Of a stretch of 37,281 nucleotides of DNA, positions 14,745-37,281 are shown one piece after another. The notes below the pieces were generated by a model. That model was not told the DNA's origin, did no database searches, and was given only the letters and a program-made list of their open reading frames with translations. The stretch lies in the NCBI GenBank assembly GCA_017476605.1, contig JAFUZM010000357.1, forward strand, positions 1-37,281, in the 5' to 3' direction. The translations under genes were made by a program, and so were the position numbers. The DNA comes from Clostridia bacterium. Lineage in GTDB: Bacteria > Bacillota > Clostridia > Christensenellales > Aristaeellaceae. Position 1 is the first letter of the stretch. Every line of letters begins with the position of its first letter.

Positions 14745-16370
14745 TCACACCACCACAAACTGTGTCCGCCGCGCCTGCCCTGGCGCTGGCATAAAGATGT
14801 TCTTCTTCGGCAGATCCTCCATCACAAACTCACAAAGCTCGTCTTTTCCATAGCTATGACGTTGCACCAACCGGTTGGCCTGATTCATAATCATCTGCTC
14901 AAAATAGTTCCGTACCGCCCGGGCATTGCCGAAATTTCGTGTCCGCTTTGAAGCCTCCGTCTCGAAGTGGCTCCTGACAGCACGCAGCACATTGCGGGAC
15001 GGGATGATGTCATTATCTCGGCAGAAGAACTCAAATATCTCTGTGAGCTCTTCTCCGGAATAATCCGGAAACTGAATGACAAATGGGAACCGGGAACGAA
15101 AGCCGGGATTTGAATCCAAGAATTCCTGCATCAATGCCGGGTATCCTGCCGCGATGACCGCAATATCATCCCTGTTGTCTTCCATAAGTTTTAATAGAGT
15201 TTCTACTGCCTCTTGCCCGAAGCCTCCACCATCCTCATTGGTCAGGGAGTACGCTTCATCAATGAACAGGACTCCACCCTTTGCTCTTTCAAATACCTCC
15301 TTGACCAGAACAGCGGTATGACCTACGTATTTGCCCACCAAATCAGCACGGCCAACCTCTACAAGGTGTCCCTTTGATAGAAGCCCGGATTCTTTATACA
15401 CTTTGCCCAGAATTCTGGCAATCGTTGTCTTCCCTGTACCAGGATTGCCGGTAAATACCATATGCAGCGTTATTGCCGGACGCCGGACATTTAGTTGATG
15501 GCATCTTCTCCGAACCTGAAGAACGTTGACCATAGTTCTGACCTGCTGCTTTACATCATGCAGACCGATCAGCGCATCCATTTCCTCCATGGCAGAGGAT
15601 AATCTTTCAGAAGGGCCTTGTTCGGTATCTTCATCTGGAAGATCAGAGCCGTCACCGGGATCCTTTACCAAATCCGCAGTCTGAAGTAATTCTGAAATAG
15701 GATTTGAGTCTTCGTCTCCCCTGTTTCCGGAAATAATTCTGCAAAGTGCTTCCTCTAATCCCTTGATTGCAGGATCGTCCTCTGGCTTATGGTTCAGCCT
15801 ATCAACCTCTACAGCGGATTTTATGATTTCTTTTGCATCGCTGCTGATGGGCTCCAATGGATCAAAATCTACTCTTTCACCAAGGGTTTTCTCGATCAGC
15901 TGAATGCACCCCGCACCGTAGCGATAATACCGAACGATTTCTTCAAGAGACGTATGCTCCTGCTCCTTAATGTAACCAAGCGCCAAATAACAGAGCGTTT
16001 GTACATACACTGACGAAATCTTATTACCGCCCACCTGTTTATCCAGGAGGATAAAGTAAGGAAGCAGGACACAGATTTGTGGCAGATTCGATTCGGTAAC
16101 TTTCTTTCTTGCCAGTTCAATAGCCAGTTCACCAAAATCATACCCGAAGCAGTCATTGATATAATGGCGACAGCCGGGGCTGATCTGTTTTTCTTTATCT
16201 GTCAGGCGAAGCAGAAAAAGCAGGATATCTGTTTTGATTGCTCCACGCAGACCCTCTTCCGGATTGACAAATGGAATGTTGTTCCCGATACCTTTTGCGT
16301 CAAGATTATCGGCCATCTCATACACGCTCTGCATAACATCTTTCATTTTATCCGTATATGTGGTTTCCAT
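14745..16370 (-). CDS. AAA+ ATPase of the SpoVK/CbbX type
   Basis: A 541-residue protein. The ATG at 16370 follows GAGAGGCGG at 8 bases. Residues 1 to about 250 form an all-helical region unlike known families, ending in an acidic Ser/Asp linker. The AAA+ domain begins with MDALIGLHDVKQQV, then Walker A GNPGTGKTT (near 305), Walker B GVLFIDEAYSL (near 369), and the arginine finger in NPGFRSRFPFVI (near 424). These are typical of CbbX and SpoVK, which form hexameric remodelling rings. It is the last gene of the large operon, 15 bases behind the alpha-CTD-like gene. It probably remodels or activates another complex of the operon. Confidence 0.88.
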   Translation of the reverse strand: METTYTDKMKDVMQSVYEMADNLDAKGIGNNIPFVNPEEGLRGAIKTDILLFLLRLTDKEKQISPGCRHYINDCFGYDFGELAIELARKKVTESNLPQICVLLPYFILLDKQVGGNKISSVYVQTLCYLALGYIKEQEHTSLEEIVRYYRYGAGCIQLIEKTLGERVDFDPLEPISSDAKEIIKSAVEVDRLNHKPEDDPAIKGLEEALCRIISGNRGDEDSNPISELLQTADLVKDPGDGSDLPDEDTEQGPSERLSSAMEEMDALIGLHDVKQQVRTMVNVLQVRRRCHQLNVRRPAITLHMVFTGNPGTGKTTIARILGKVYKESGLLSKGHLVEVGRADLVGKYVGHTAVLVKEVFERAKGGVLFIDEAYSLTNEDGGGFGQEAVETLLKLMEDNRDDIAVIAAGYPALMQEFLDSNPGFRSRFPFVIQFPDYSGEELTEIFEFFCRDNDIIPSRNVLRAVRSHFETEASKRTRNFGNARAVRNYFEQMIMNQANRLVQRHSYGKDELCEFVMEDLPKKNIFMPAPGQARRTQFVVV

Positions 16371-16385
16371 GAACGTCACCGCCTC

Positions 16386-16745
16386 TCAGTTCATTTCCAT
16401 AACCTTATCCAGATATGCTTTCCGCTTCTCTGGCTTCAGGTTCTCGTAAGTGTAAAGAAAGAGCTTCAACATAATTTCATTTGCGCTTTTCCGACCGCAG
16501 CACCGAATCTTTGCGAAATCCTCTCGCCGGTCAACATCGTTCACGACAGAATTGATGGTGCTATACCCGGCACGGCGAAGACAGTTATAGGACCGTACTG
16601 ACAATTCCAGGGAATCGATATCTTCATCCATCGCCGCCATACCCTGATATACAGTAAAGCGAAAAATCCCATCCCGGTCACAAAGCCAGTCCACGAATGC
16701 CTCGTTTTCAATTTTTTCTGATATCATCTCCCGCGTAAAATTCAT
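16386..16745 (-). CDS. RNA polymerase alpha C-terminal-domain-like mini-protein
   Basis: A 119-residue protein. Residues about 40-97 match the C-terminal domain of the RNA polymerase alpha subunit: DIDSLELSVRSYNCLRRAG, then CCGRKSANEIM. The positions equivalent to E. coli alpha Arg265 and Asn268 (VRSYNC), Gly296, Lys298 and Ser299 (GRKS) are all kept; these bind the DNA minor groove. There is no alpha N-terminal domain. The first 40 residues are an acidic helical segment and the last 20 a Lys/Glu helix. It lies behind a terminator-like hairpin and a 126-base gap, with GGGGG ahead of the ATG. It could anchor the system on DNA or redirect transcription. The fold call is firm and the role inferred. 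Confidence 0.85.
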   Translation of the reverse strand: MNFTREMISEKIENEAFVDWLCDRDGIFRFTVYQGMAAMDEDIDSLELSVRSYNCLRRAGYSTINSVVNDVDRREDFAKIRCCGRKSANEIMLKLFLYTYENLKPEKRKAYLDKVMEMN

Positions 16746-16775
16746 ATGTCACAGCCCCCTTCATTTGATAGCGCA

Positions 16776-16784
16776 ATCATAACA
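16776..16784 (-). promoter_or_regulatory. Possible extended -10 promoter before the alpha-CTD gene
   Basis: On the minus strand TGTTATGAT forms an extended -10 element about 30 bases ahead of the gene start, behind a small hairpin CTACC/GGTAG. No good -35 is present at 17 bases. It would allow the last two genes to be expressed independently of the upstream operon. Weak evidence. Confidence 0.3.
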
Positions 16785-16802
16785 CTACCAAAGGTAGCCG
16801 TG

Positions 16803-16819: not shown

Positions 16820-16832
16820 ACGCCAGGACAGC

Positions 16833-16858: not shown

Positions 16859-16871
16859 CTTCAATAGTTTC

Positions 16872-19800
16872 TTATATTTCATCCGCTTTCAGGAAGTGTC
16901 CCTGATCACATCGAACATAGATACCATACTTGCCAAGAGCAGCATGTATACCGCAGTGATGGATCGGACAGGTTACGTGTTCCCTGTCGATATACCAGTT
17001 CGTCACCTCCGGTGTCAGATATGCAATCTCCTTGCAAGAAGACGAGGAGCACTTCAGGAACACCTTCCCCTGACGGGATCTTGTAACAGTCATCGGGCTC
17101 TTGCACTTCGGGCATTTCTCCATCTTTCGGACAAAAGCATCAATACCCGATGCGCCTTTTCCGTCAGCATCCTGATCTCCGCCACCACCGCCACCTTTGA
17201 TTGGACCAGTGGAACTGTCTTTCTTCTCCTGCAGCGGTTTTCTCTGTCCATTAACCACGCGATACTCCAGATCCGAAAATGCCTTGATCATTTCAAGAGT
17301 ATGCTCTCCTTTAATCCTGTAAATCGTCTGGCATACTGTCATAAAACCAGAGTTTCCATCGCGGAACATCCCTCTCGATTTCGGGAATCCGTACCAAGCC
17401 ACCTTATCGTCAATAACAATCAGCGGGAATACTGCATCCTCAGATGCCCAGGCAATATTCTTCCAGCCATCCGGGAGTTCCTCATATCCGTTGGTTTTAC
17501 ATAGAACTCGAATACCGTTCCTGGCCGCATCCGTTATAATCTTCAGAACAGAAGCCTGTGTTTCTGCATCAAGTTTACCATCAGGAATTGAAATGACGAT
17601 TTTCTCATGAGCTTTCTGTACATCCAACCTGAAATCGTCAATAGCATCGTTCAGATGGTTGTAAAGACACAGATTCCGTGTTGACGGCAACTGTTCAATA
17701 TAAGGTGCCAGGGTTTTCTCTTTTACTGATATAACCTTCCCAGACCCCATCAGATACTTCACCAGCCGATAAAAGATATGCTGTGTGCCACCAAACTTAT
17801 TCTCCCAGAAGGTTGCATTGGCAACAGCGATCAGCTTTCCTCTTGCTCTGGTCACGGCAACATTGATCAGACGAGATACAGAATCCATCTCTTTTCCCAT
17901 CAGCCAGCCCACTTTTGAAGCAGGATAGTTCTCTACTGCATCAAAAATAATCAGGTCACGCTCCGATCCCTGGAACTGGTGCACCGTAGAGCAAGCAACT
18001 TCTGTACTATCATTCTTTCTATGATCCTGAATCATGGCTCGGATCAATCTGGTTTGAGCTGCATAGGGGGTAATGATTCCAATACTCTTCTCCCCGTTTT
18101 CTTCCGCTTTAAGGGCTGTAGAGAACGAGATGATCGCGCTGAGGATATTGAACCGTGAGTTGTCACTGTTTTTCATGGCAGCACTATATGAGCCAGCCAT
18201 ATTGATCAGACTGACAGCGCTCCCAGCCAGCGGCTGTTTCTTTACAATCTCTGTCCGGTTTGACTGCACACTATCATGGTCAAGCAGAAGGTTATTATAA
18301 ATATTTTTGTTCGGGAAGGCAGAAATCGCAGGATGCATTCTTCGCTGTTCGTTCAGCATGACGAGCCACGGATGTGCGCAGACTTTCGAACCATTGGAGA
18401 TTCCCAGATAGGCAAACACATCCACGCCCAGAACAGTTTTTGCATCCGACTGGACGATAGGAGCCAGCTGTCGGAAGTCACCAACCAAAACAAGCTTTTC
18501 CCTAGCATAGGAAGCTGCGCAAATGATCTGCGGCACATATGCCATACTGACCTCATCAAACATCACGATATCATATTCTTCCTCATCAAAGAGTGAATCG
18601 ATCGTTACTTTTGAGATCGTTGTAGCTACAAGCTTTGCCTTTGATACATACTGGCGTTCTTCTGTTCGTACTTCAGCCCGAAGCTTCTTCAGCTCTTTCT
18701 CTACCTGCTCCCCTTTATAGGAGTTGTAACCGCCGGTTTTCTTTAACTGATCCTTATCCCGGTACAACTGATCAATTTTTCGCTTCAGATCGGGACGATG
18801 ATTCAAAACATAGTTATACGCCACCGCATAGGAATCCTGTGATAATTCCTCATCCCGAACATAACCGTAACGAAGAACCTTTCCTTCTGTAAGGAGTTTT
18901 CCCATGCCAGCATTCCGCAGGCCTGCAACAGTCTGCTTTATAACGCCATCAACAGAAACATTACTGTGGGAGACGATCAATATCGTTTTTCCATTTTGCA
19001 GACCTTCTTTTGCGATCTGCGCCATAGTATAGGTTTTGCCAGTTCCGGGCGGCCCCCAGATCACCGTAATATCATTGTTTCTTGCGGCACTGATTGCAGC
19101 TGCCTGTCCTTTGGGGATCGACGAAGCAGAGTCTGTTGTTGCAAGGCCTGGTCCTTCATTAATCAGCTTCATGGCCATCCGGCTGCTGCCTGTTATGCTG
19201 TCGAGTTTATTGACCAAAGCCTCCAGAAGTTTCCATGGCTCTACACCCAGCATAGCCTGTCCGATCTTGACTCCAAAGTCCTTGTCAATGATCACAATGA
19301 TTTGGAATCCTTCACAGACAAGGACGCTTCCTGTAGCCTCGTTTGCACCAACATAAAGTGTAATCGGCGCATCATCAGAAAGATTCAGCTCCGCTTCCAT
19401 CTCAAAACTATATGTACTCAACCCGTTTTTATGGTTTATGAGCGTACCGTTTGTCAGCTTATGTCTTCGACCGCCCTCATTCTGCAGAAAGAATTTTTCC
19501 CTGAGTAATGCTTTCTTGTATTGTTCTAATTTAGGAATCTGATAGGTCTGGCCACCGCCACCAATATCTCCAGTATCGGTGCCCCCTGGTGTAGTTCCAC
19601 CGCCCCCTATGGGTGCCTTTTCCTTTGCCTGTCGAATACTTTCTTCGAGTCGAAGGATCTCCTCATTGCTGAGTCTTCGTCCCATCACATAGTCCAGTGC
19701 AATCCCCGTGTCTTTTCTGTATTTATAGGCAATTTCATATCTGCGATGATCTCCGGCCAGGAAATACAAAACAAGCACAGAGTCAGACAGCATAAAGTTA

Positions 19801-20420
19801 CGCTTTTCGATGGGAATGTTCAGAGCAAAGTTCTTATTACCGCTCTCCTTAGGCTTGCACTCACCCATGTAATAGTTATCATATTTCCGGTTCAATTTAT
19901 CGGAAAGATATGTTTCATTCAAGGAAACATCTACACTGATTCCTGCCTTAGACTGCATACGGAAATTCAGCTTAATAGCACCATCCAACACAGAAATCTG
20001 CGGCAAGGTAACCTTAAACGGGCAGTTGTTAAAATTCTTTTCTTTTATCCCGTTTACCGGCTGATCCGGTCCCGGCTGTTCTCCAGGAACCCCCGGGGCA
20101 ATTGCGGAGATCTTTACCGTTCGTTTCAGCACGCTTTGCCCATAGCAAATAAACCAGAAGCGAATCGCGTCATCCGCAAGTTTCTGGTCAATGCCGTATA
20201 TCTTCACAACCTTCTTTTTGTATTTATAATAGACTGGATCGTTAATTACCTGTAACTCTTCAATCTCTCTCGGAAGGCCCAGGTGAAATAGATTCACCAG
20301 AATATTATTCATCTGAACGTCCCTTGGAAACAGGTCGCTCAGTATCGCCCGGAACTTCTTCTCATCAAAAAGGCATTCCGGGTGTGATTGCAAGAGGCTG
20401 ATAAATTCCTGCTCCTTCAT
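16872..20420 (-). CDS. UPF1-like superfamily 1 helicase with N-terminal adaptor domain, degenerate PLD-like domain and zinc finger
   Basis: An 1182-residue protein from the ATG at 20420, behind GAGGGAG at 8 bases. Residues 1-104 form a helical domain shared with the LRR protein at 31138-32223. A beta-rich region, a Gly-rich linker (near 280) and a SMBP2-like region follow. The SF1B helicase core has Walker A WGPPGTGKTYT (near 455), DEVS Walker B (near 621), GDFRQLAPIV motif III, and the AVTRARGKLIAV motif VI. Residues about 910-1055 have the PLD-like layout (LIVIDDKVAWYG), but the His and Lys of the HKD motif are absent. The end carries a topoisomerase-type Cys4 finger (CPKCKSPM, CSSSSC) and a second Cys/His cluster. 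It would translocate on RNA or DNA; nuclease activity of the PLD part is unlikely. Confidence 0.9.
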   Translation of the reverse strand: MKEQEFISLLQSHPECLFDEKKFRAILSDLFPRDVQMNNILVNLFHLGLPREIEELQVINDPVYYKYKKKVVKIYGIDQKLADDAIRFWFICYGQSVLKRTVKISAIAPGVPGEQPGPDQPVNGIKEKNFNNCPFKVTLPQISVLDGAIKLNFRMQSKAGISVDVSLNETYLSDKLNRKYDNYYMGECKPKESGNKNFALNIPIEKRNFMLSDSVLVLYFLAGDHRRYEIAYKYRKDTGIALDYVMGRRLSNEEILRLEESIRQAKEKAPIGGGGTTPGGTDTGDIGGGGQTYQIPKLEQYKKALLREKFFLQNEGGRRHKLTNGTLINHKNGLSTYSFEMEAELNLSDDAPITLYVGANEATGSVLVCEGFQIIVIIDKDFGVKIGQAMLGVEPWKLLEALVNKLDSITGSSRMAMKLINEGPGLATTDSASSIPKGQAAAISAARNNDITVIWGPPGTGKTYTMAQIAKEGLQNGKTILIVSHSNVSVDGVIKQTVAGLRNAGMGKLLTEGKVLRYGYVRDEELSQDSYAVAYNYVLNHRPDLKRKIDQLYRDKDQLKKTGGYNSYKGEQVEKELKKLRAEVRTEERQYVSKAKLVATTISKVTIDSLFDEEEYDIVMFDEVSMAYVPQIICAASYAREKLVLVGDFRQLAPIVQSDAKTVLGVDVFAYLGISNGSKVCAHPWLVMLNEQRRMHPAISAFPNKNIYNNLLLDHDSVQSNRTEIVKKQPLAGSAVSLINMAGSYSAAMKNSDNSRFNILSAIISFSTALKAEENGEKSIGIITPYAAQTRLIRAMIQDHRKNDSTEVACSTVHQFQGSERDLIIFDAVENYPASKVGWLMGKEMDSVSRLINVAVTRARGKLIAVANATFWENKFGGTQHIFYRLVKYLMGSGKVISVKEKTLAPYIEQLPSTRNLCLYNHLNDAIDDFRLDVQKAHEKIVISIPDGKLDAETQASVLKIITDAARNGIRVLCKTNGYEELPDGWKNIAWASEDAVFPLIVIDDKVAWYGFPKSRGMFRDGNSGFMTVCQTIYRIKGEHTLEMIKAFSDLEYRVVNGQRKPLQEKKDSSTGPIKGGGGGGDQDADGKGASGIDAFVRKMEKCPKCKSPMTVTRSRQGKVFLKCSSSSCKEIAYLTPEVTNWYIDREHVTCPIHHCGIHAALGKYGIYVRCDQGHFLKADEI

Positions 20421-20434
20421 ATCAGTTACTCCCT

Positions 20435-21454
20435 CTACCGCCGGAACAATATTCTGCATGTGTTTGCAGCATCGTTAATTGTCTGTTGTCCTGTAATCTG
20501 GCTCATGCCTGCATCAATATACTGCTGCAGCGCATGGTTCGTCATCTCATCTGCAATGTCTCTGGCCTTCAGCTTCCCGGTAAGTTTGAAATAGACCATT
20601 CTGGAATTACGCTTTACCTGCCGCGTGATGTAATCACGAAGCAATTTCTTGGAACTGAATATAAGCCCCTCTTGCTCAAAGAAGCCTAATTTCTTTTCTG
20701 CACATCTGGGAAAGCCCGTCGAAAAAACATGATCTTTGCGGATCTGTGCATCCGTCACATTATAATAATCGTAGGAAATAGAGTCAGCAGATCCCACCCC
20801 TATATCAAAGGTAATATCCAGATGACAGGGGGTGCCATCAATGTTTACAATGTTCCAGGCGTGATCTGTCATCTTCCCTGTTTCATCTGCCGCCTCACCA
20901 AAGAGTACTATGCATCGGACGTCAACCGCATTCAATAACACCTTGGCTGCCTTTGCGATCCCTTCACACTGTGCCTTCTGATGGGCAAAAACGCCAATTA
21001 TGTTGTGTGCAGCGATAAACCTGGAAACATCTTTGACATTGGCCCCACCATAATCGTAGGTGATCTTCTGGCACATATAGTCATGAATCTTACGCACCTT
21101 TTCCAGATCGCTTCCCTCGGTCAGCTTTAGATTATATATGATTGCATTGGCTGCATCCTGTATTTTTTGATTGTAGGATGCCACGTTCTCCTGTGAAAAG
21201 AAATACTGCGGCATCACCGCATAATTGCCATTTGCATCCTGTGCCAGGTCCATACGGGACTGGTTCAGGAAATACAGCAAAGGATTGTCATCCATAATAG
21301 CCTGAATGATGCGCAGATACGACTTCGCGTCATCATTTTCAAAAGCAGATACCGGAATGACATCTTTATGTGCCATGCAGCCCTGATATATTTCCCTGTA
21401 TATCTGCTTCTCATTTTCCGGAAGCTTACCATAAAAATATCGATCAACGATCAA
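20435..21454 (-). CDS. Cytosolic transglutaminase-like protein
   Basis: A 339-residue protein of the transglutaminase/protease superfamily. The catalytic triad is visible in order: Cys163 in HQKAQCEGIAKA, His198 in MTDHAWNIV and Asp213 in PCHLDITFD. The region before it (VRKIHDYMCQKITYD) is the usual helix ahead of the domain. There is no signal peptide, although most bacterial family members of this length are secreted or surface-linked, so it should act in the cytosol as a cysteine protease, cross-linker or peptidase. About 110 N-terminal and 100 C-terminal residues are not recognisable. It lies 38 bases behind the sacsin-like gene and 14 bases before the helicase start. Confidence 0.85.
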   Translation of the reverse strand: MIVDRYFYGKLPENEKQIYREIYQGCMAHKDVIPVSAFENDDAKSYLRIIQAIMDDNPLLYFLNQSRMDLAQDANGNYAVMPQYFFSQENVASYNQKIQDAANAIIYNLKLTEGSDLEKVRKIHDYMCQKITYDYGGANVKDVSRFIAAHNIIGVFAHQKAQCEGIAKAAKVLLNAVDVRCIVLFGEAADETGKMTDHAWNIVNIDGTPCHLDITFDIGVGSADSISYDYYNVTDAQIRKDHVFSTGFPRCAEKKLGFFEQEGLIFSSKKLLRDYITRQVKRNSRMVYFKLTGKLKARDIADEMTNHALQQYIDAGMSQITGQQTINDAANTCRILFRR

Positions 21455-27222: not shown

Positions 27223-27621
27223 TTATCTGTCACCACCAGACTGTACACCGGCACCATCATAATCTGTAAGCCGTCCAGTACTTCCACACCATTCACAGGT
27301 AAAATAATCACCTGATATAATCTGGCAATTCAGCTTTTTACAGCTATCGCAAACTACAAATACTTTTACTCCGCAATATGGACATCCATTGTATTCTGCC
27401 GTATGTCCCAGATTGCCTTTCAGGATGGTAGCATCGTATCCTTCTCTTTTTGCGGAATCCGCTGAAATAGGAAAAGCCCAGGTGCAGTTCCAGCCTCCCT
27501 GAGCTTTCTCCATTCTGACACCATATATCTTCTTGGATTCTCCACATTTACAAAGTGCAATACGAGCTTCCGGTTCCCGATTAATCTTAACAAAACCCGT
27601 TTCCCGGACGTTTTCGCTCAT
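27223..27621 (-). CDS. TerY-C-like zinc-binding protein
   Basis: A 132-residue protein with two or three zinc sites: CKCGESKK near the start, then GCPYCGVKVFVVCDSCKKLNC, then CEWCGSTG. The pattern and the neighbouring VWA, PP2C and kinase genes fit the TerY-C metal-binding domain that accompanies TerY proteins, usually as a C-terminal part of the VWA protein. Here it is a separate gene. The middle contains a W-rich beta segment (WNCTWAFPISADSAKREGY). GGGAGG stands ahead of the ATG at 27621. It could deliver a bound partner to the phosphorylation triad. Confidence 0.75.
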   Translation of the reverse strand: MSENVRETGFVKINREPEARIALCKCGESKKIYGVRMEKAQGGWNCTWAFPISADSAKREGYDATILKGNLGHTAEYNGCPYCGVKVFVVCDSCKKLNCQIISGDYFTCEWCGSTGRLTDYDGAGVQSGGDR

Positions 27622-29228: not shown

Positions 29229-29261
29229 CACTTGTACCTCCTTGTACCTGGATTCTCTTTA

Positions 29262-30563
29262 TTATCTGAATTCACCAACTGCATCGGTGAAATGAATTTT
29301 GACTCCTGCTGCGATACCGGCAGTCCGGCCAACCTCGATTGGAATCTGCGTGCCATCCGCCTTCTCATAGGTCCAGTTCACTTTATCTTCATTCCGTATA
29401 CCCCAAAGGTTAGGATTCTTCGGATTCTGAACCACCGATCCGACATAAGTATCCATGTCGTAATCGCCATAAACATGATGGTGTGTGAGTCTGGAATTCT
29501 GGTTCAGAAGCACCACATTCTTTCCTATCACAATCTTCACCGGTACCTGCATGGTATTCTGGCAATTCCAGCAGGTATGTGCTGCTCCAGATTTCTCAAG
29601 ATCCATATCGTAGAAGACTCTAGCCCCACACTTCGGACACTGCATCGTCCCACTCATCATATTGGCGAACAGATCCATCCACTGCGGCTCCGTAATCCGC
29701 TTATTAGGGGACGTCAGGCCTTCCGTGAACGCCTTTGTAAACATCTGTCGAAGTTTTTCAGGATAAATCGGCCAGTAGATCAATGCGTTGTCCTGATACC
29801 CTTTTACCGGACGATTGGTCTTGTTATTCGGGTCAAAGATAAACACCGGATTGGTTCCGTAGAGCTTCACCCGGGCTGCCATGTCCATACACTTAATACT
29901 TGCTTCCAGCTTTCCATCCAGCGGATGGTTCACCATGAAGAGATAGAATAGCAATACGGACAGAGAATACAAGTCTGTGTTTCTGGAAGGCTTCGACTCT
30001 CCACGTACAATTTCCGGAGCCATAAATCCAGGCGTTCCCAGAATGTCTCCCGGCTTGCTTCCTTCAAAAGAAACGTTGTCGTTATCGCAGATCAGGACAT
30101 CACCGGTATTCTCATCAAAGAACAGGTTTCCAAAGGAGATATCCTGGTACTTAGCTCCCATCGCATGGAGCTTCTGATATCCTTTTGCCGCATTATAGGC
30201 TGTTCTACAGAGTGTATAAAACGTCGGCTGCGCCTTATTCTTCATCAAGTCTACAATGCTTTTGTAGTTCTTCGGCCTCAGTGCCATGATATAGCCGAAC
30301 ACTTCACTCTGCTGCGGAGCAACAAGTTCCATGGGCCAAAGAAAAGACTTATCCGGGCTTCCTTTGGCAATGATCGTCTCAAGCGATTTCTTCTGCCGTG
30401 ACGTTGCACTTCCCTTAAAGTACCACTTCAGGGCATAATGGCTGCCACCGGATTCCACGTCATAGACCTCACCCTGTCCGCCGGCACCAAGCAGGCTCTT
30501 CACTGTATATTTTGTACCACTCTCCGAAGTGAGTATGGTTCCTGTCTTTAACTCGCCATCCAT
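29262..30563 (-). CDS. Ser/Thr protein kinase with zinc ribbon (TerY-P triad)
   Basis: A 433-residue eukaryotic-like kinase. The Gly-rich loop is GAGGQGEVY, the ATP-anchoring Lys46 is in YALKWYF, and the catalytic loop YQDISFGNLFF gives Asp141 and Asn146. The DFG motif is replaced by DND (Asp160 kept), and GFMAPEIV follows. The His-Arg before the catalytic Asp is replaced by Tyr-Gln, as in the kinase groups tied to VWA/PP2C triads. A Cys4 zinc ribbon (CPKCGARVF, CWNCQNT) and a beta-rich domain of about 90 residues follow. No membrane segment. Its ATG shares one base with the preceding stop codon (TGATG), so translation is coupled. Confidence 0.9.
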   Translation of the reverse strand: MDGELKTGTILTSESGTKYTVKSLLGAGGQGEVYDVESGGSHYALKWYFKGSATSRQKKSLETIIAKGSPDKSFLWPMELVAPQQSEVFGYIMALRPKNYKSIVDLMKNKAQPTFYTLCRTAYNAAKGYQKLHAMGAKYQDISFGNLFFDENTGDVLICDNDNVSFEGSKPGDILGTPGFMAPEIVRGESKPSRNTDLYSLSVLLFYLFMVNHPLDGKLEASIKCMDMAARVKLYGTNPVFIFDPNNKTNRPVKGYQDNALIYWPIYPEKLRQMFTKAFTEGLTSPNKRITEPQWMDLFANMMSGTMQCPKCGARVFYDMDLEKSGAAHTCWNCQNTMQVPVKIVIGKNVVLLNQNSRLTHHHVYGDYDMDTYVGSVVQNPKNPNLWGIRNEDKVNWTYEKADGTQIPIEVGRTAGIAAGVKIHFTDAVGEFR

Positions 30564-31069
30564 CAGTATGAACTCCTCCTCTGTTTGATCAGCTGAATCG
30601 TCTGGTTCACAACAGCTCCATCCTGGAGCAGCAATGTATAAGACTTATTTCCAAATTGAAGCTCTATCCCATTACTGTAGGGGACGAATGCCGTCAGATA
30701 TTTAAAGCTTTTATCGAACCCGTTTTCCTTTGCCTGGAAAATGATTCTCTGATTGGTTATATAGAGAACGCCTGCATGAAAAACATTCTCCTGCCTTTCT
30801 ATCGGCTTCCCCCGGCCATAATTCACACGGTTTCCCTTAAACAGTCCCGGTGTACTCAGACCGATATGTTCATACGTCTTGGTGGTCTTCACTTCCATAT
30901 TCATTGCTTTGTCAATGAAGTGAATTCTTTCGCCCTTCTTCGGAAAGATCGTATCGGCGTTCAGAATTGGAAGGCGGCCCGCCATGATTTCCTGTTTTGC
31001 CGCAGCCGGCAAGATACTGGTAACCGTCGGCAGCTGCTTGTTGCCGAACAGTGCATCAAAGAATCCCAT
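30563..31069 (-). CDS. Small PH/GRAM-like domain protein
   Basis: A 168-residue protein from the ATG at 31069, which has a strong AGGAAGGAGGAG site; upstream in-frame starts lack one. The core (HAGVLYITNQRIIFQAKENGFD, then SFKYLTAFVPYSNGIELQFG) has the look of bacterial PH-like and GRAM domains, which bind lipids or peptides. The first 60 residues contain an amphipathic MGFFDALFGNKQ start that could touch membranes. It is coupled to the kinase gene and 68 bases behind the LRR gene, with the repeated hairpin motif in the gap. It may place the kinase on a membrane or partner. Fold call moderate. Confidence 0.72.
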   Translation of the reverse strand: MGFFDALFGNKQLPTVTSILPAAAKQEIMAGRLPILNADTIFPKKGERIHFIDKAMNMEVKTTKTYEHIGLSTPGLFKGNRVNYGRGKPIERQENVFHAGVLYITNQRIIFQAKENGFDKSFKYLTAFVPYSNGIELQFGNKSYTLLLQDGAVVNQTIQLIKQRRSSY

Positions 31070-31116
31070 GCTCTCCTCCTTCCTGCTCCATGATAACTTG
31101 AATTTTTGCCTGCGTG

Positions 31117-31133
31117 GTCGCATAGCAGGCGAC
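31117..31133. repeat. Hairpin copy B of the repeated intergenic motif
   Basis: On the minus strand GTCGCCTGCTATGCGAC, matching copy A at 16803-16819 in 16 of 17 bases but in opposite orientation. An alternative stem is possible: GCCTGC at 31113-31108 and its complement at 31130-31125 exclude the first stem. The copy lies in the 68-base gap between the LRR stop and the PH/GRAM ribosome binding site. Confidence 0.6.
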
Positions 31134-31137
31134 ACGG

Positions 31138-32223
31138 TCAAATAAGTTGATATTTAAATCTATGTGAGCGGGCATACTGCTCCGCATAGGTTCCAAAAGA
31201 GCACTGGATGATGAACATCTTATTGGTTCCATCGAAAGCGGTTTCGCCAATTTTTTCAACCGAATCCGGAATCGTTATAATATCCAGTGCGGAACACCCC
31301 TTGAAAGCACGTTCCCCGATTTCTCTCAGGCTCTCTGAAAAATCTATCTTTTTCAGTTGCGTGCATCCTTCAAACATACCGTCAGCAATACGGTCAATAT
31401 TTGCAGGGATCTTGATCTTGTCCATCTCAGTACAGCCTGCAAAGGCTTCCGATCCGATATAGTAGACTGATTTGGGGAATACGATCGTTTTCAGGCCAGT
31501 ATTCTTAAATGCCGCACTTCCGATCCGCTCCAACCGCTCCGTCAGAGTAATCCGTTTCAGATTTCCGCATCCTTCAAAAGCACTGTCTCCAATCTCCATA
31601 AGGGTATAAGGCATCACTACCTGATGCAGCCGTTCATTCTGAAAGAAAGCACGTTTTCCGATATACTGGTATCCTTCAGTGACAATAACTTCTTCAATAC
31701 CTTTGTTTTCAAAAAGACCTTCCCCAACCTCAATTACCGGTTTACCAGCATTTCTGTTCTGAAAGATGACAGTATGGCTGGTATCGCCTGAAAAGCCGCA
31801 AACGGCCTGCCCTTGTCCTTGCATGCTGTTCCTGTAATGGAATAGATCTCCATACTTCTTTGTAGATGGCTGTTCCGGCGCGATTGCCGGGGTTTTTCCA
31901 CTCTGAATGCCTATCTCGCACTCTTTCCCCAGGATATTTTTTCCATAGCAAACACACCAGACTGAAACTACCCAATCTGCGTTCACTCTGCTCAGTCCAT
32001 AATCATCTGTCAGCTGTTTTACAAAGCGGTAGGCAAAGGCATTATTGATCCGTCCTGTACTCTGGATCTGTTGGACAATACCAATCTCATATGCCATAAG
32101 CATCAGATTGATTGTCCTTGCCTCCTGAGGAAAAAAGTCCTTTATGAGACCTGTGAACTTCTTTTTATCCTCTACCGCATCTCCATACCGGCGAAGCATG
32201 GATTCAAAGTCTTTTTCAAACAA
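31138..32223 (-). CDS. Cytosolic leucine-rich-repeat protein with N-terminal adaptor domain
   Basis: A 361-residue protein. Residues 1-104 are homologous without gaps to the N-terminus of the helicase at 16872-20420. After a linker come about seven BspA-type (LRR_5) repeats, roughly 180-345, with units such as EIGDSAFEGCGNLKRI and IGSEAFAGCTEMDKI. BspA proteins are usually secreted, but this one has no signal peptide, so the repeats probably form an intracellular recognition surface. The start is taken as TTG at 32223, since the nearby ATG runs into a stop within a few codons; AGAAGGGAA lies upstream at a somewhat long distance. It is 18 bases behind the BrxL-like gene. Confidence 0.85.
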   Translation of the reverse strand: MFEKDFESMLRRYGDAVEDKKKFTGLIKDFFPQEARTINLMLMAYEIGIVQQIQSTGRINNAFAYRFVKQLTDDYGLSRVNADWVVSVWCVCYGKNILGKECEIGIQSGKTPAIAPEQPSTKKYGDLFHYRNSMQGQGQAVCGFSGDTSHTVIFQNRNAGKPVIEVGEGLFENKGIEEVIVTEGYQYIGKRAFFQNERLHQVVMPYTLMEIGDSAFEGCGNLKRITLTERLERIGSAAFKNTGLKTIVFPKSVYYIGSEAFAGCTEMDKIKIPANIDRIADGMFEGCTQLKKIDFSESLREIGERAFKGCSALDIITIPDSVEKIGETAFDGTNKMFIIQCSFGTYAEQYARSHRFKYQLI

Positions 32224-32241
32224 GGTTTATCATTCCCTTCT

Positions 32242-34341
32242 TTACTCCACACCAAGGGCACGGAACACCGCTTCCTCCGGAGTGGAATAGAATATAGGCT
32301 GTATAGCGGACAACAAATCTGCCGGCACGGTTCCAAAATCGGATGCTGATGAAATCGGAATCAGAACCTTCTTGGCTCCAGAATCTACGCAAACCTGCAG
32401 TACCGCGGCCAGGTCTTCCACCTTTGTAACTGTTCCGCTGATGGAAATATCTCCTATGATCGCCAGACCTGCTACAGTGGGCTTGGTCAGGGCGATTGAA
32501 GAAATAGCAACAAGCGTCGGCAGTGCAACATTCTTTGTCATGCCAATGCCCTGCAGATCCTGATAATCAATGATATAGTCCTTCGATGTGGTGCTAATTG
32601 CCTGGCTGATGGAGTTTCCATGGGCTTTCAGGTAGGAATAAGCTGTGTCGGCAGCACTCTTGCTGTCCTTATCCAAGCTGAAGCCCTTCTTTTCAAACTT
32701 GCCGTTGCCGGGGAGCATCTGGCTCTCCAAACGGAAGGCGCCGATAATTCCGTTCTTTCCTCTGGCAATCGTGTATACATGGCCCGGATTACAGATTCCG
32801 TCCGGAATAATCTTTCCACCGCCGGTCTCCGGGACGCCAACATAATGCTCGTCAAAGGTCTGGTTGTCGATATAGGAGAAGTTCACATCATAGAACTCCA
32901 TGCCGCCAATCTTCTTCAACTGCTCTTTTACTCTGCGTCGCAGCTCCAGGGAGATATCCAGGATCTCTGCAATATCTTCCTTACTGAATTCACCGTCCGG
33001 ATAGATCAGTTTTACAAAGGCATCAACCAGCCTGCGGACTGCTATCGTGTCACGCTGATTCAGGTTCTTCCCCAGATGGAAATATTTATCTATGGAATCG
33101 CCATAGGATTCCTTGCGCATCTCACGCATAAATTCAGACAGATAGTCTGTAATAAAACCATAATCATCTGTAAAATGCTCCGGGCGATACTTCGGGATCT
33201 CCCAGCCGGGAATGTAGGCATGCATACGGTCCAGGAAAGCGGTATCGTAAGCCATTGCTTCCGGGAACGGTTCAAACAGATGGGATGTCTTCAGCATCAC
33301 GGAAACATCATGGTTGATGTTTCCGACAAAGACCATAGAAGCTGAGGCTGCCTTCTCTTCCTTACCGCGGGCAAAGGACCCAGAAGCCATATAGTCCTTC
33401 ATGATCTGAATGCCGTCTTTATCTTTGAAGGTGATACCGGCAACCTCATCGAAGGCAACACAATCCCACATGCCAACGAGACCGACCGTCTTGGAAGCCA
33501 TGTTGTAGAACAGGTTCGCAACGGTGGTCTGACCGCCAGAAACCAAGATGGAGTTAGGTGAAATTTCTTTATATAAGTGTGATTTACCAGTTGATCTCGG
33601 CCCCAACTCGCAAACATTCAGGTTGTTTTCCACCAACGGCAGCATACGGGCAAGCAGAAGCCACTGGGCACGCGGCGGCAGCTTGGATGCTTCCATACCG
33701 GTAGAACGGAGCAGTATCGTAATCCACTCATCCTTGGTAAAAGCTTTCCTGCCGTTCTTCAACTCATCCATATCAATGTGCGGCATCTGAACTGGTGTCA
33801 GCTTCCGGATATGAATCGGGCTCATATCCTTCTCTTCTTCTATATACTCATAATCCAGCTGGATGATGCACCAGATACCGCCGGCGAGCAGTCGATCAAA
33901 CTGCTTCGGATAATCCGAGTTGATCGGAATATTCTTTATGCCAAGATTGGAAAATTCCGCCTCATAGCGATCCTTCTTGATGTTCAGAATAACCGTTACT
34001 TTATCGATGACCGTGTATGCACCACGCTCACGAAGCGCAGAAAGCACCTTCTGCGCTTCATCCGGGCGCACATAGTTATTGGCCAAAATCCTCTTAACAT
34101 TCTCCACACCCTCGGAAATGATCTGCTCATCTTCCGAGTTGCAATATTGTCCCAGAAGGTATTCCAGAACATAGACCGGAACATTCGCACCTTCCTTAAT
34201 GTGCTTGGTCAGATCCTTCCGGACGATTTTGCCGTCAAAATACTGGCGAAGTTTTTTATTAAGTTCTGCGTTTGGATCTCTCCCAGATTCACTATCTGAA
34301 GCAGTCTCTTCAGAAATAGGCTCTTCTCTGAATTCTTCCAT
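32242..34341 (-). CDS. brxL: BrxL-like AAA+ protein with Lon-like C-terminal domain
   Basis: A 699-residue protein closely matching BrxL, the Lon-related protein of BREX phage-defence systems, which forms DNA-binding ring assemblies. The N-terminal region (ELNKKLRQYFDGKIVRKDL) and YLLGQYCNSED are typical. The ATPase has Walker A LGPRSTGKSHLY (near 247) and Walker B WDCVAFDEVAG (near 298). The C-terminal Lon-protease-like domain (VALPTLVAISSIALTKPTVAGLAIIGDISISG) keeps the fold; where Lon has its catalytic Ser I see no clear GPS motif. No other BREX gene (brxA, brxB, brxC, pglX, pglZ) is present in the window. AAAGGA precedes the ATG. It starts 46 bases after the UvrD-like gene. Confidence 0.9.
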   Translation of the reverse strand: MEEFREEPISEETASDSESGRDPNAELNKKLRQYFDGKIVRKDLTKHIKEGANVPVYVLEYLLGQYCNSEDEQIISEGVENVKRILANNYVRPDEAQKVLSALRERGAYTVIDKVTVILNIKKDRYEAEFSNLGIKNIPINSDYPKQFDRLLAGGIWCIIQLDYEYIEEEKDMSPIHIRKLTPVQMPHIDMDELKNGRKAFTKDEWITILLRSTGMEASKLPPRAQWLLLARMLPLVENNLNVCELGPRSTGKSHLYKEISPNSILVSGGQTTVANLFYNMASKTVGLVGMWDCVAFDEVAGITFKDKDGIQIMKDYMASGSFARGKEEKAASASMVFVGNINHDVSVMLKTSHLFEPFPEAMAYDTAFLDRMHAYIPGWEIPKYRPEHFTDDYGFITDYLSEFMREMRKESYGDSIDKYFHLGKNLNQRDTIAVRRLVDAFVKLIYPDGEFSKEDIAEILDISLELRRRVKEQLKKIGGMEFYDVNFSYIDNQTFDEHYVGVPETGGGKIIPDGICNPGHVYTIARGKNGIIGAFRLESQMLPGNGKFEKKGFSLDKDSKSAADTAYSYLKAHGNSISQAISTTSKDYIIDYQDLQGIGMTKNVALPTLVAISSIALTKPTVAGLAIIGDISISGTVTKVEDLAAVLQVCVDSGAKKVLIPISSASDFGTVPADLLSAIQPIFYSTPEEAVFRALGVE

Positions 34342-34387: not shown

Positions 34388-36298
34388 TTATCGTTCTCGA
34401 AACATTTCTCCCATGAATCTTGAAACCCTTTTTGACCATCCGAAATACCTTTTGGCATATGTCAAATATAATCGTTTCTTAGCTCTTGTAATGGCAACAA
34501 AGCAGTTTCTTCTTTCCTCTTCCATTTCAGGGCTATCGTCTCCCTTTTTTATGCTTTGAAAAGAAGGCAACTCGTCATCAACCATTCCGATTAGGATAAC
34601 ATGGTCAAACTCCTTACCTTTGGAGGCATGGATAGTAAGAAACTGCACAGCACCTGTTTCCGGCTCCACATCCTTAGATGTCATGGCAAATTCCTGCATG
34701 TATGTAGAGATTGTCATTTCATCTAGAGAATATGTGTATCCTAGTTTTCTTTGGAAATCTTTCCAAGCTTTCTTCTCAAGGTTGAATTCCTGTAGTGCTT
34801 GTTCCCGATGTTCTTCGCTGATAATTGAATTGATTCGTTTCTCGCTCCAACTGAAGGCATCATCGATAAACTTCAGGAAATCTTTTCCCTCGCAAAGATT
34901 TAATCGAAGACTCTTAAAGAATGGCGCATCATCTATGATTTTTTCTATATGAGGAAGTAATGCTTTCAACAGATCACCGTTGCTAAGTTGCGCCTCTAAA
35001 ACCAGTTGATCGCTATCAAGGACCTTATTCTCGCTGTCCATAATGGCAACAATCTGCGCAAGGATTTTCTCATCTGTCCTTCGGTTTGCCAGTTTTAGTA
35101 ACAAATACATCCACAGCACATATGTCGTTTCAAACTCGTCTTTTCTTTTGGATTTTTCGCAATTGATTTTCTTTTCTTTCGCCTTATTAAACGCATTTTC
35201 CAGCAAGCGATTATTTCTGGCAAGGACACATATACTATCATTTGCATTTTCTTCTTGCAGTCTCGTAATTAAATTGGCAACTGCCTCTGCCTCTTCTGTT
35301 TCATCTGAAAAGCATTGATAATACAGATGTGCTTGTCCATCTGTCATCTCCTTCATAGATTCTAATGGCTTTTTCCCTGACGTTCTTCCTGAATTATGGG
35401 AAATTAATCGATTTGCAAGTTTTATCACCTCTGGAGGACATCTAAAATTTTGATTCAGCTGAATCAATTCGGCTCTATACTCTTCTTTGAATTCACTTAT
35501 CCTTTTGTGACTGGCACCGTTCCAGCCATAAATAACCTGATCATCATCTGCCACAATAAAGAGATTGTTGTTCTTATTCCCGGCAAGGCTTTTAATCAAC
35601 ATATATTGACCATAATTAGTGTCCTGGAATTCATCTATGTTGATAAAGCGGTATGTTGACCGATAGATACGAGCAATATTAGCCTTGGTCGTAAACAATT
35701 TGTACGCATATAATATCAGCGCATCAAAATCCAATACATTCATGGTTTCTAATGCCTGAAGATACTCAAAATAAAACCATTTCAACTCTTTTCTATATGG
35801 GGTATTCGGCATAACCCTATCAACATCTTCCTCGGTCAAACACAGATTCTTTTCAAAATACTGAATTGCATTAAGTATCTTCAAGTTTTCCACATCAGCC
35901 CCAGGAACCTCGTGATAATACCTTTTCTTTAGATCATCAACAATATCGTTTAAATCATCCGTAGAACTATAAATCTCATAATCCGGACGAATTCCTGCAT
36001 ATGACCCATGATTACGGAGAACTTCTGCGCAGAATGAATGAAAGGTGCCAATGAAAACTCGTGAAATAGCATCCTTTACACGTTCAGTTATTCTTTCTGC
36101 CATTTCTGCTGCTGCTTTATTGGTAAAGGTCAAGGCCAATATTCTAAAAGAGTCTTCCGGAGTCTCTTCCAGAATCCGAATAATACGTTCTGTTAGAACA
36201 GCCGTTTTCCCAGATCCTGGGCCTGCCAACACAACAACTGGGCCCTCTTCCCATGCTATTGCCATTTTTTGCGATTCTGTATAATTTCGTTCGGTCAT
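34388..36298 (-). CDS. UvrD/PcrA-like superfamily 1A helicase (Gabija GajB-like)
   Basis: A 636-residue helicase. All SF1A motifs are seen: YTESQKMAI (Q motif), LAGPGSGKTAVL (Walker A), LALTFTNKAA (Ia), FINIDEFQDTN (II), VADDDQVIYGWNGA (III), QLNQNFRCPPEV (IV), TIHASKGKEFDHV (V) and VAITRAKKRLYL (VI). Its ATG overlaps the stop of the TOPRIM nuclease gene by 4 bases. This pairing of OLD-family nuclease and UvrD-like helicase is that of class 2 OLD operons and Gabija. It is longer than a typical GajB (near 490 residues). The gene is visibly more AT-rich than the downstream operon, so it may have arrived separately. Confidence 0.9.
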   Translation of the reverse strand: MTERNYTESQKMAIAWEEGPVVVLAGPGSGKTAVLTERIIRILEETPEDSFRILALTFTNKAAAEMAERITERVKDAISRVFIGTFHSFCAEVLRNHGSYAGIRPDYEIYSSTDDLNDIVDDLKKRYYHEVPGADVENLKILNAIQYFEKNLCLTEEDVDRVMPNTPYRKELKWFYFEYLQALETMNVLDFDALILYAYKLFTTKANIARIYRSTYRFINIDEFQDTNYGQYMLIKSLAGNKNNNLFIVADDDQVIYGWNGASHKRISEFKEEYRAELIQLNQNFRCPPEVIKLANRLISHNSGRTSGKKPLESMKEMTDGQAHLYYQCFSDETEEAEAVANLITRLQEENANDSICVLARNNRLLENAFNKAKEKKINCEKSKRKDEFETTYVLWMYLLLKLANRRTDEKILAQIVAIMDSENKVLDSDQLVLEAQLSNGDLLKALLPHIEKIIDDAPFFKSLRLNLCEGKDFLKFIDDAFSWSEKRINSIISEEHREQALQEFNLEKKAWKDFQRKLGYTYSLDEMTISTYMQEFAMTSKDVEPETGAVQFLTIHASKGKEFDHVILIGMVDDELPSFQSIKKGDDSPEMEEERRNCFVAITRAKKRLYLTYAKRYFGWSKRVSRFMGEMFRER

Positions 36299-37281
36299 TT
36301 ACACACCTTCTCAACCAAATTAGTAATAAAGACGGGTACCTCTTCCTTTTTCATACATCTTTGAGACCAAATCGATATTAGCTCATACGCAGTATCTACC
36401 TTGCTTGTCTGAATCAGCTCAGCAATTTTTATGGAGTATTCTTTATTTTTTCCTGCTTCTTTCAACTGTTTGGTCTGCTCATCAATTTCTGCCTCAACTA
36501 TACGTTCATAATCCGGCAGGATATTGCTGTCTGCGGCAATTTCATGTTCAAAATCCACTTCAGTAGTTAACGTTGCTCGATAACTAAGCTCTGTTTCATC
36601 CACACCACAGTTGCGAACCTCCTGTAAAGTAGACTGACCTTGTTGATCATTATCACCAAGTAAATACCAGTCTATACCGAGGACAAGCGCCAATTTTATA
36701 AAAGCTTTTGCTGATCCGTTATTTCGATACATGATTGTGCTCACACCATACTCATCCAGATTTTTCTCCATAAGATCTGCACAATAAGGAACAATTACAT
36801 CTTCCGTTTGTCCCTCATATAACAGCCACTTGCGGGCAAACAGTATTTCTCCTCGTGTCTTCTGCACATATGTATTGAGTTGATTGAGCTCCTGATCTGT
36901 AAAAATCTCTGAACTATTTGCGATTATGCCTGTAACGTCAATGCCTTTCTTCTTAAAAGATCCTTCAAAACATCTAATCAGTTGTGGAGACAAGCTTTCC
37001 TTTATAACTATTCTGCTCTCATCAATACTGAAAACGTTCGGGAATTTCTCTGCAACTTTCCGCATGCCATCCGGAATTTCGACCGGAGTAAAAACAATCT
37101 CTGTTACAAGCTGTTTTACCACAGTTTCCCCGTTCTTTTTCGGCGCTTCTGTAGCTTGGGTGGGCAAGTAAGCGCTAATCTTACCCACCAGCAAGGTCAT
37201 GACTCCGTACGCCGCCCTTGCGTGAACCTCAGATGGATGCTGTCGGTAACTGACCGACGGCGAGAAACTCAAGAACAGATC
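36295..37281 (-). CDS. OLD-family TOPRIM nuclease, C-terminal part (Gabija GajA-like), 5' end outside the window
   Basis: At least 328 codons are open to the right edge. The TOPRIM domain is clear: LLYEGQTED with the metal-binding Glu, then YLLGDNDQQGQ with the Asp pair, preceded by KTRGEILFARKW, as in ATP-dependent OLD endonucleases. The family has an N-terminal ABC-type ATPase half of about 250-350 residues. No Walker motif is visible here, so that half must lie beyond the window or be lost. The first 45 codons (HPSEVHARAAYGVMTLL) do not look like OLD sequence and are GC-richer, so the gene may be truncated and joined to foreign DNA near 37150. The apparent TTG at 37272 is not trusted as a start. 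Confidence 0.82.
   Translation of the reverse strand, partial: DLFLSFSPSVSYRQHPSEVHARAAYGVMTLLVGKISAYLPTQATEAPKKNGETVVKQLVTEIVFTPVEIPDGMRKVAEKFPNVFSIDESRIVIKESLSPQLIRCFEGSFKKKGIDVTGIIANSSEIFTDQELNQLNTYVQKTRGEILFARKWLLYEGQTEDVIVPYCADLMEKNLDEYGVSTIMYRNNGSAKAFIKLALVLGIDWYLLGDNDQQGQSTLQEVRNCGVDETELSYRATLTTEVDFEHEIAADSNILPDYERIVEAEIDEQTKQLKEAGKNKEYSIKIAELIQTSKVDTAYELISIWSQRCMKKEEVPVFITNLVEKVCK

Follow-up and report, generated by a model that had tools for sequence, protein, structure and literature searches.

Does a run of 15 closely spaced genes on a contig of a Clostridia bacterium encode one composite defence machine, or several systems that happen to be neighbors? The window, i.e. the whole stretch of DNA analyzed (37,281 bases), is an entire contig (C241). 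An earlier note had described a one-strand, 15-gene run at 14745 to 37281, and all 15 ORFs were found there, on the minus strand and with no internal stops. Domain calls on the window proteins with Pfam, PADLOC, and NCBIfam give the list below, in which ND denotes an unnamed domain of ∼105 residues.

36295..37281, minus strand, C-terminal part of GajA, an OLD-like TOPRIM protein (Gabija), cut by the contig end (PADLOC GajA E=3e-46 over residues 49-326; PF20469 9e-14)
34388..36298, minus strand, GajB, a UvrD-like helicase (Gabija; PADLOC GajB E=3e-219)
32242..34341, minus strand, BrxL, AAA+/Lon-like (PADLOC BrxL E=0; Walker A/B kept in 9/9 homologues)
31138..32223, minus strand, ND-LRR protein: ND (aa 1-106; 31891-32220 by profile) and BspA-type LRR (LRR_5 2.5e-57; ND profile E=2.7e-41)
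30563..31141, minus strand, GRAM/PH-like protein (PF02893 0.0023, below cut-off; in 20/80 related loci)
29262..30563, minus strand, Ser/Thr kinase with a C-terminal four-Cys zinc ribbon and a further tail (PF00069 4.9e-17)
28467..29231, minus strand, TerY-like VWA protein, MIDAS intact (PF00092 1.1e-6)
27636..28454, minus strand, PP2C phosphatase (PF13672, PP2C_2, 4.9e-32)
27223..27621, minus strand, TerY-C-like zinc protein (PF15616 3e-4, below cut-off)
23780..27196, minus strand, giant acidic protein (GIANT), 24% D+E (weak PPR match only, 0.0065)
21493..23760, minus strand, sacsin-like HATPase with a NOV C-terminal domain and a TmtA-like N terminus (PF25794 3e-9; PF13020, NOV_C, 8e-9; PADLOC TmtA 9e-55)
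20435..21454, minus strand, transglutaminase-like protein (PF01841 8.7e-8)
16872..20459, minus strand, ND-helicase: ND (20103-20423 by profile), UPF1-like SF1 core (MkoA-like), weak C-terminal zinc ribbon (AAA_11/AAA_12, AAA_12 8e-36; MkoA 9e-57; ND profile E=9.6e-30)
16386..16745, minus strand, RNA polymerase alpha-CTD mini-protein (PF03118 7e-15)
14745..16379, minus strand, SpoVK/CbbX-type AAA+ ATPase (TIGR02881 5e-85, below the equivalog cut-off)

Neighboring ORFs are separated, in this order, by -4, 46, 18, -4, -1, 30, 12, 14, 26, 19, 38, -25, 126, and 6 bases, and the next ORF beyond the run is 372 bases away. The spacing (-25 to 126 bases) is tight, as previously described, but some of the start/stop overlaps are probably annotation artefacts, because relatives align with the GRAM-like protein from M25, which makes 31069 its likely start, and because, in the helicase ORF, ND starts only at residue 14. 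Between 14300 and 34299, promoter-like sites on both strands are at chance level (34 versus 31.8+/-6.7 in shuffled sequences) and terminator-like sites slightly above it (21 versus 14.9+/-4.0), so these counts neither prove nor exclude a single transcript.

The kinase gene lies next to those of the VWA protein and PP2C, each encoding conserved catalytic or metal-binding residues, which supports the TerY-P-like triad recognized in the earlier note beside a TerY-C-like protein. In the kinase, K46, D141, N146, D162, and the four Cys are conserved in 76-78 of 78 homologues (77-78 for the Cys of the ribbon, which was called by its Cys pattern); the tail extends ∼90 residues beyond. All five MIDAS residues are found in the window VWA protein and in 62/62 homologues, the five metal-site Asp of PP2C in 59/59, and in the TerY-C-like protein eight of nine Cys are conserved in 19/19 homologues, the remaining one in 16/19. 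A profile search of the PDB returned nothing at E<0.1 for the kinase tail or the GRAM-like protein. Six relatives of the kinase were found in viral contigs.

Stand-alone TerY-P triads have been described as antiphage systems (PMC7699616, citing Gao 2020; PMC10889362). As described there, they have in common with the window a TerY-like VWA protein, PP2C, and a Ser/Thr kinase in one operon. The window differs in that its kinase carries a C-terminal zinc ribbon followed by more tail, and in that PADLOC matches neither its VWA protein nor its PP2C (nor its TerY-C-like protein) at E<=0.01. Further additions are ND proteins, a GRAM-like protein, a transglutaminase and, often, BrxL. In the published descriptions, a C-terminal zinc ribbon marks the kinase of the CoCoNuT form and an OB-fold that of the stand-alone form.

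What may link this switch to other products of the run is ND, which the earlier note had missed. It is common to the N termini of the LRR protein and the UPF1-like helicase (BLASTP E=6.5e-15), and the genome has two copies in total, both in this operon. This is the best evidence that the presumed sensor and effector belong together. We compared the window with 80 related loci, which are the best-scoring kinase relatives rather than a random draw. Because our ORF caller retains the longer frame where two overlap, some real genes were hidden (e.g. the kinase in L104 and an ND gene in L102), and counts based on ORFs are minimum values. ND is present in 70 of the 81 loci, window included (86 genes); of the 82 ND genes with a kinase ORF in their locus, 81 share its strand and 65 lie within 1.5 kb of it. 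Among called ORFs it is lacking in 11/80 loci, three of which are on contigs under 5.5 kb, and in one of the 11 (L102) tblastn revealed ND. On a Methylomonas plasmid, kinase, VWA, and PP2C genes are followed by those of five ND proteins.

Across loci, ND is joined to LRR, RCC1, Sel1, TPR, ankyrin, GYF, or HIRAN, or to helicases resembling MkoA, DpdF, DrmD/BrxH, and PsyrT/GajB. Among the best 25 of 63 Pfam families in these fusions are LRR_5 (18/66), Sel1 (9), RCC1 (5), ResIII (4), DEAD (3), and UvrD_C_2 (3); among the best 25 of 100 PADLOC families, for which a single protein can match several, are DpdF (3), PsyrT (2), GajB (2), and DrmD, BrxHI, HmaA, and MkoA (1 each). The set of 66 ND regions comprises the window's two regions and, from the loci, 64 of the 65 that survived a 75% identity filter. 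A second alignment combines five ND proteins from L012 with 61 of the 86 found across the 81 loci; the other 25 were excluded, one for an ambiguous base and the rest by eye as near-duplicates or fragments. The best 25 of 63 Pfam families include none common to the ND regions, NCBIfam gave one chance-level match to the 66 regions and no common family, and sequence and profile searches of the PDB gave no relative at E<0.1. In the top-ranked matches of a literature search, judged by the openings of their abstracts, nothing concerned ND or a BREX/TerY-P/LRR block. Median ND identity is 30% within loci and 26% between them, hardly different; pairing by sequence is thus weak, with no clear sign of matched ND pairs.

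The association of ND with the kinase extends to two genome samples. Among 250 genomes of the family, ND occurs in eight, the kinase tail (E<1e-7) in eight, and both in seven, in which they lie on one contig within 10 kb (hypergeometric p=6e-12, not corrected for kinship). The tail count omits 13 of 21 genomes, those with E values of 3e-4 to 9.6e-4, 12 of which match zinc-ribbon positions 18-48 only. One genome has ND without the tail (G048), another the tail without ND (G060), and in G241 the ND match is marginal (E=8e-4). Among 398 genomes of the phylum, ND occurs in three, the kinase tail in three, and both in three, always on one contig (p=1e-7).

A check of gene order in the 80 loci gave a divided answer. 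The complete 15-gene set is found in none of them, but a six-gene core, BrxL-LRR-GRAM-kinase-VWA-PP2C, recurs in that order in 11, nine of which add the transglutaminase. Identities of the kinase, VWA, PP2C, LRR, GRAM, and transglutaminase proteins are correlated (r=0.90-0.98, 10-12 loci), which may partly come from common phylogeny. At E<=1e-5, GIANT and sacsin occur together in 1/80 loci (L059), alpha-CTD in 1/80, and SpoVK in 0/80. Along with Gabija, these are probably swappable add-ons. No full-length helicase relative was found in the 26/80 loci with mapped ORFs, and helicase matches in the 80 loci are almost all to ND. Four or five genes (kinase, ND-LRR, VWA, PP2C, often TerY-C) have the same chromosomal flanking genes in 13-16 loci, a pattern closer to that of resident genes than to that of a mobile defence cassette.

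On balance we lean toward a composite defence operon, in which a TerY-P phospho-switch (kinase, VWA, PP2C, zinc protein) would act through ND, an EAD-like modular adapter to which different sensors and effector helicases could be attached interchangeably. ND would join presumed sensors or scaffolds, here the BspA-type LRR, and effector helicases, here the UPF1-like one. In the resting cell, PP2C would oppose the kinase, with ND proteins apart or inhibited. Infection might be sensed via the repeat protein, and possibly also by metal- or peptide-dependent VWA/TerY-C contacts, shifting the kinase/phosphatase balance; phosphorylation would then drive assembly of ND modules, perhaps by ND-ND binding, so that the helicase, probably with the BrxL ring, would load onto phage nucleic acid, block its replication or expression, and so protect the cell. 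The earlier picture of a sensor/switch/effector machine thus survives in its triad and defence context, with the LRR protein a plausible sensor and the helicases plausible effectors, but not as a conserved whole set.

It is possible, if rather improbable, that Gabija, an orphan BrxL, the TerY-P system, and the other genes form a defence island, sharing transcription and acting separately. The pair formerly described as OLD/UvrD is indeed present and is best assigned to Gabija, itself a known system of two genes, with GajB complete and GajA truncated by the contig edge, its first 48 residues outside the PADLOC alignment. It occupies the place where relatives carry BREX or other genes. At the GajA edge, Rfam gave no non-coding RNA match and a comparison with plasmids no match. 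In L052, Cas9 separates the LRR gene from the GRAM gene, and Menshen-like NsnABC lie inside the BREX of the L050 genome. The rarity of GIANT with sacsin (one recurrence) and of SpoVK (none) argues in the same direction, as does BrxL, which tracks the core less closely (r 0.62-0.78, with incomplete copies in L052 and L053). Separate action is harder to reconcile with ND being common to the LRR protein and the helicase, in the genome's only two copies, and with the core order in 11/80 loci.

That the TerY-P, LRR, and GRAM proteins tune or restrain BREX or BrxL, with no defence of their own, appears unlikely. BrxL does open the conserved block, and BREX genes lie upstream of it in six of the 11 full core blocks, with one to five ORFs separating pglZ from brxL; in L073, pglZ adjoins brxL. 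However, the L054 and L056 genomes have BrxL and the block with no PglZ match, and BrxL is absent from the DNA of 68/80 loci, many of them short. Among the window proteins scanned, BrxL stands alone, with brxA, brxB, brxC, pglX, and pglZ absent before the contig ends upstream. A BREX contig of the same genome (C169) is not the missing upstream part, since on it pglZ is followed directly by the beginning of a different brxL; the 300-base ends of the two contigs have no 15-mer in common. Least probable is a resident stress-signaling module without immunity, which would suit the constant chromosomal neighbors of the four- or five-gene form and the published link of TerY-P to tellurite resistance and metal sensing (PMC11090510), but not the fusion of ND to relatives of defence helicases, the sporadic distribution (8/250 family genomes) with plasmid copies, or BREX and Gabija as neighbors.

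Several described systems resemble the composite operon that we favor. CoCoNuT types II and III-A (PMC11090510) likewise combine TerY-P with a kinase-zinc ribbon protein and an SF1 helicase, one extension adding a SpoVK-like ATPase. Membership was rejected, as Pfam found no McrB-type GTPase (CnuB) or McrC-like partner among 19 window proteins (ORFs from 11065 onward); the window has ND-LRR and BrxL instead. GAP1-N2 GTPase systems (kinase-zinc ribbon-beta domain, PP2C, VWA) have the same triad and the same kinase layout, with the zinc ribbon here called by its Cys pattern and the beta domain putative, but they are described for actinobacteria (PMC7159879), and the 19 proteins include no GAP1 GTPase by Pfam. 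Like EADs, small and often fused domains that recur in both the core proteins and the effectors of a single conflict system (PMC7159879, PMC8195603), ND is a small domain common to several proteins of one conflict operon. It differs in that its partner would be a kinase/phosphatase switch rather than MoxR-VWA, and homotypic ND binding is putative. ND matched no described EAD family in NCBIfam or among the best 25 of 63 Pfam families, in a Pfam copy that may not hold every EAD model. BREX type 1 has BrxL in common with the window, which has that gene only, Gabija taking the upstream place filled by BREX in relatives. The MkoA match is limited to the helicase core. Mokosh, in its MkoA/MkoB or type II composition, includes nuclease and kinase parts.

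TerY-P triads protect against phages, but the consulted passages leave unclear what they switch on. ND, nearly confined in the two genome samples to the neighborhood of one TerY-P branch and fused both to recognition-type repeats and to defence helicases, is a specific candidate for that connection. Its profile can be used to find the sensors and effectors of TerY-P-type systems, and with ND in hand the idea that phosphorylation controls bacterial immunity can be tested directly. More tentatively, ND might define a general plug-in immune platform, a kinase/phosphatase-gated network of adapters and a bacterial counterpart of Death-domain signaling platforms, placing any ND-tagged sensor (candidates being LRR, RCC1, Sel1, TPR, and ankyrin proteins) or helicase (DpdF-, DrmD-, PsyrT/GajB-, or UPF1-type) under TerY-P control and spliceable into BREX operons.

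As a member of the conserved block the helicase was discarded, its best relative in 391 genomes of the class (G471, 35-37%) being an 881-codon frame without ND; within ∼40 kb of it, the only other relative of a window protein is a short, weak SpoVK match. GIANT was likewise discarded as a marker, since of 250 family genomes it was found in only two, that of the window and G126, where the match covers its first ∼120 residues only and no other window protein occurs in the surrounding 20 kb. GIANT is 33% identical to L059:1573-3876, which also adjoins a sacsin homologue, and GIANT and the sacsin-like gene next to it would form a pair. The L055 genome has a SpoVK relative (39%) that lies upstream of its BREX genes. 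The transglutaminase residues C163/H198/D213 are conserved in 13/13 homologues, and a stand-alone alpha-CTD homologue lies beside a triad in L105.

The most informative feature of the operon is an unnamed domain of ~105 residues, here ND, which stands at the start of both its leucine-rich repeat (LRR) protein and its UPF1-like helicase. When the window proteins were compared with one another by BLASTP, LRR residues 3-119 matched helicase residues 16-129 at E=6.5e-15, the sole strong unexpected match. The window's own genome (G000) encodes ND twice, in each case within this operon. ND regions share no common Pfam or NCBIfam family, and an ND profile search of the PDB yielded no sequence relative at E<0.1.

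The 15-gene, one-strand operon proposed in the earlier note is real, consisting of 15 successive minus-strand ORFs whose intergenic gaps range from -25 to 126 bases, with 372 bases to the next ORF. The window spans one complete contig of G000 (C241). The OLD/UvrD pair placed upstream is present and can be identified as Gabija, whose GajA gene is truncated where the contig stops. The TerY_C match of the zinc protein and the GRAM match of its neighbour fall below Pfam cut-offs; both proteins have relatives elsewhere (see table), and the TerY-C Cys pattern is kept in homologues. An alignment of the kinase was scanned against one genome per species (84,980 species), matching at least 592 stretches. 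Kinase relatives are encoded by 556 of these, and the best 80 loci (L-handles) were kept for comparison.

Table. Relatives of window proteins among the 80 loci (tblastn, E<=1e-5)
Kinase: 80
VWA: 71
PP2C: 69
LRR protein (any part): 54
Helicase: 35, almost all via ND
TerY-C: 26
GRAM: 20
Transglutaminase: 15
BrxL: 12
Sacsin-like HATPase protein: 2
Giant acidic protein: 1
GajB: 1
alpha-CTD: 1
SpoVK: 0

The gene set had been viewed as one unit, which holds for a part of it. The order BrxL-LRR-GRAM-kinase-VWA-PP2C (the block) recurs in 11 of the 80 loci (L050-L057, L059, L060, and L113), nine of which also carry the transglutaminase, whereas the full set was found in none of the 80 at this threshold. 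Because many loci are short, such absences partly reflect undersampling.

With an iterated profile, 86 genes encoding ND were identified, distributed over 70 of the 81 loci (the 80 plus the window); the domain is N-terminal in 73, C-terminal in 10, and internal in three. Fusions were surveyed in 66 full-length proteins, i.e. 61 of the 86 and five from a Methylomonas plasmid. Among the Pfam matches listed (25 of 63 families), the partners are LRR_5 (18), Sel1 (9), RCC1 (5), ResIII (4), DEAD (3), UvrD_C_2 (3), GYF_2 (2), and, in some, TPR; ankyrin, HIRAN, and DUF4261 fusions were also seen, and L105 encodes ND fused to Sel1 and alpha-CTD. PADLOC matches, among those listed (25 of 100 families, one protein possibly matching several), are DpdF (3), PsyrT (2), GajB (2), and DrmD, BrxHI, HmaA, and MkoA (one each).

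ND also co-occurs with the C-terminal part of the kinase (kinase tail), as assessed by searches equated genome by genome via identical handles. In a family sample of 250 genomes, ND (E<=1e-3) occurs in eight and the tail (E<1e-7) in eight. Both occur in seven, in each on one contig and <10 kb apart; G048 carries ND alone and G060 the tail alone, while the ND match of G241 is marginal. In a phylum sample of 398 genomes (E<=1e-5), both occur in the same three genomes, on the same contig. Hypergeometric p values, uncorrected for kinship, are 6e-12 (family) and 1e-7 (phylum) with G000 included, and 2e-10 and 1e-5 without it.

Some copies of the block have BREX neighbours. Upstream of BrxL, a PglZ relative is encoded in L050, L051, L055, L057, L059, and L073 (one sequence cluster, one member Pfam-named), and in L073 brxL directly adjoins pglZ. 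Pfam PglZ was found at or near the block in six of nine genomes searched (those of L050, L051, L052, L055, L057, and L059). In these six, the upstream DNA carries brxC, pglX, and pglZ relatives, and in five also brxA and brxB relatives; PADLOC named BrxA, BrxB, BrxC, PglX, and PglZ in the L059 genome, and genes of the other five were assigned by similarity to it. The pglZ-to-brxL slot of these six holds one to five ORFs of variable content: L059 has the giant acidic and sacsin-like proteins there, L055 and L057 have Schlafen-AlbA proteins, and L051 has an AAA ATPase. In the window, Gabija occupies the position upstream of BrxL. Since the genomes of L054 and L056, among the nine, have no Pfam PglZ match, the block is able to live without BREX. 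G000 has four PglZ genes outside the window (contigs C58, C169, C248, and C385), and therefore several BREX-like operons. The PglZ on C169, which also carries the start of its own brxL, is the nearest of the four to the BREX/TerY-P lineage (68% to that of the L059 genome). In the L050 genome, NsnABC of the Menshen system (PADLOC names; L130:15790-18873) form part of a BREX operon, flanked by pglX and pglZ. The ND-LRR and GRAM genes of L052 are separated by a Cas9 gene and neighbouring ORFs (2517-8435).

Two lifestyles are apparent. One form, of four or five genes (kinase, ND-LRR, VWA, PP2C, and often TerY-C), has the same chromosomal neighbours in 13-16 loci, mostly titled Lachnospiraceae; in genome G615 these neighbours are, as read by eye, Rnf electron-transport and aldo/keto reductase genes. 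The extended form neighbours BREX, Cas9, NsnABC, or Gabija. Kinase/VWA/PP2C triads are also plasmid-borne, in Prevotella and in Methylomonas, where kinase-VWA-PP2C is followed by five consecutive ND proteins (L012:18587-26016).

Homologues of the kinase, PP2C, VWA, transglutaminase, BrxL, and TerY-C keep their catalytic or metal-binding residues, and an active phospho-switch is therefore likely. PMC7159879 and PMC8195603 describe effector-associated domains (EADs), small domains common to core and effector proteins that unite both by homotypic contacts. ND fits this pattern, although it matches none of the described EAD models tested. In CoCoNuTs, as presented in PMC11090510, TerY-P with a kinase-zinc ribbon stands beside helicases, with SpoVK-like ATPases in one extension, and that TerY-P protects is reported or cited in PMC10889362 and PMC7699616. 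Taken together, these points lead us to infer a phospho-gated adapter system that would recruit a helicase, UPF1-like in the window, and perhaps also BrxL. A sensing role of the LRR, binding between ND domains, and the direction in which phospho-control works are conjecture. As this kind of switch is already known, the window system counts as a new form of TerY-P systems, not a new category.

Further genes were seen around triads and in the window. At L105:2048-15005, a triad is accompanied by three ND proteins (one being the Sel1/alpha-CTD fusion), an alpha-CTD protein that stands alone, and a DNA/RNA non-specific endonuclease. In L138, L139, and L140, triad genes are followed by a helicase-like ORF of ~1800 aa and a protein with C-terminal ND, and in L067 a 2141 aa DUF4011 helicase with a nuclease domain adjoins an ND protein. 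The remaining window features are:
3-1558 and 5398-6237, IS21-like ORFs (by eye) flanking the next feature
1683-5374, plus strand, three consecutive ORFs (556, 327, and 363 aa), a tyrosine-recombinase-like trio (by eye)
11843-13993, ORF combining a PHP-like part (by eye) with an ATPase; its match is PDC-M49A (E=2e-32), a candidate defence family
14037-14372, small ORF with 71% identity to a hypothetical protein of the triad-bearing Prevotella plasmid (L013) and 76% identity to a portion of an ORF adjoining BREX genes on C58
By eye, the recombinase-like/IS21-like stretch reads like a mobile-element end of the contig.
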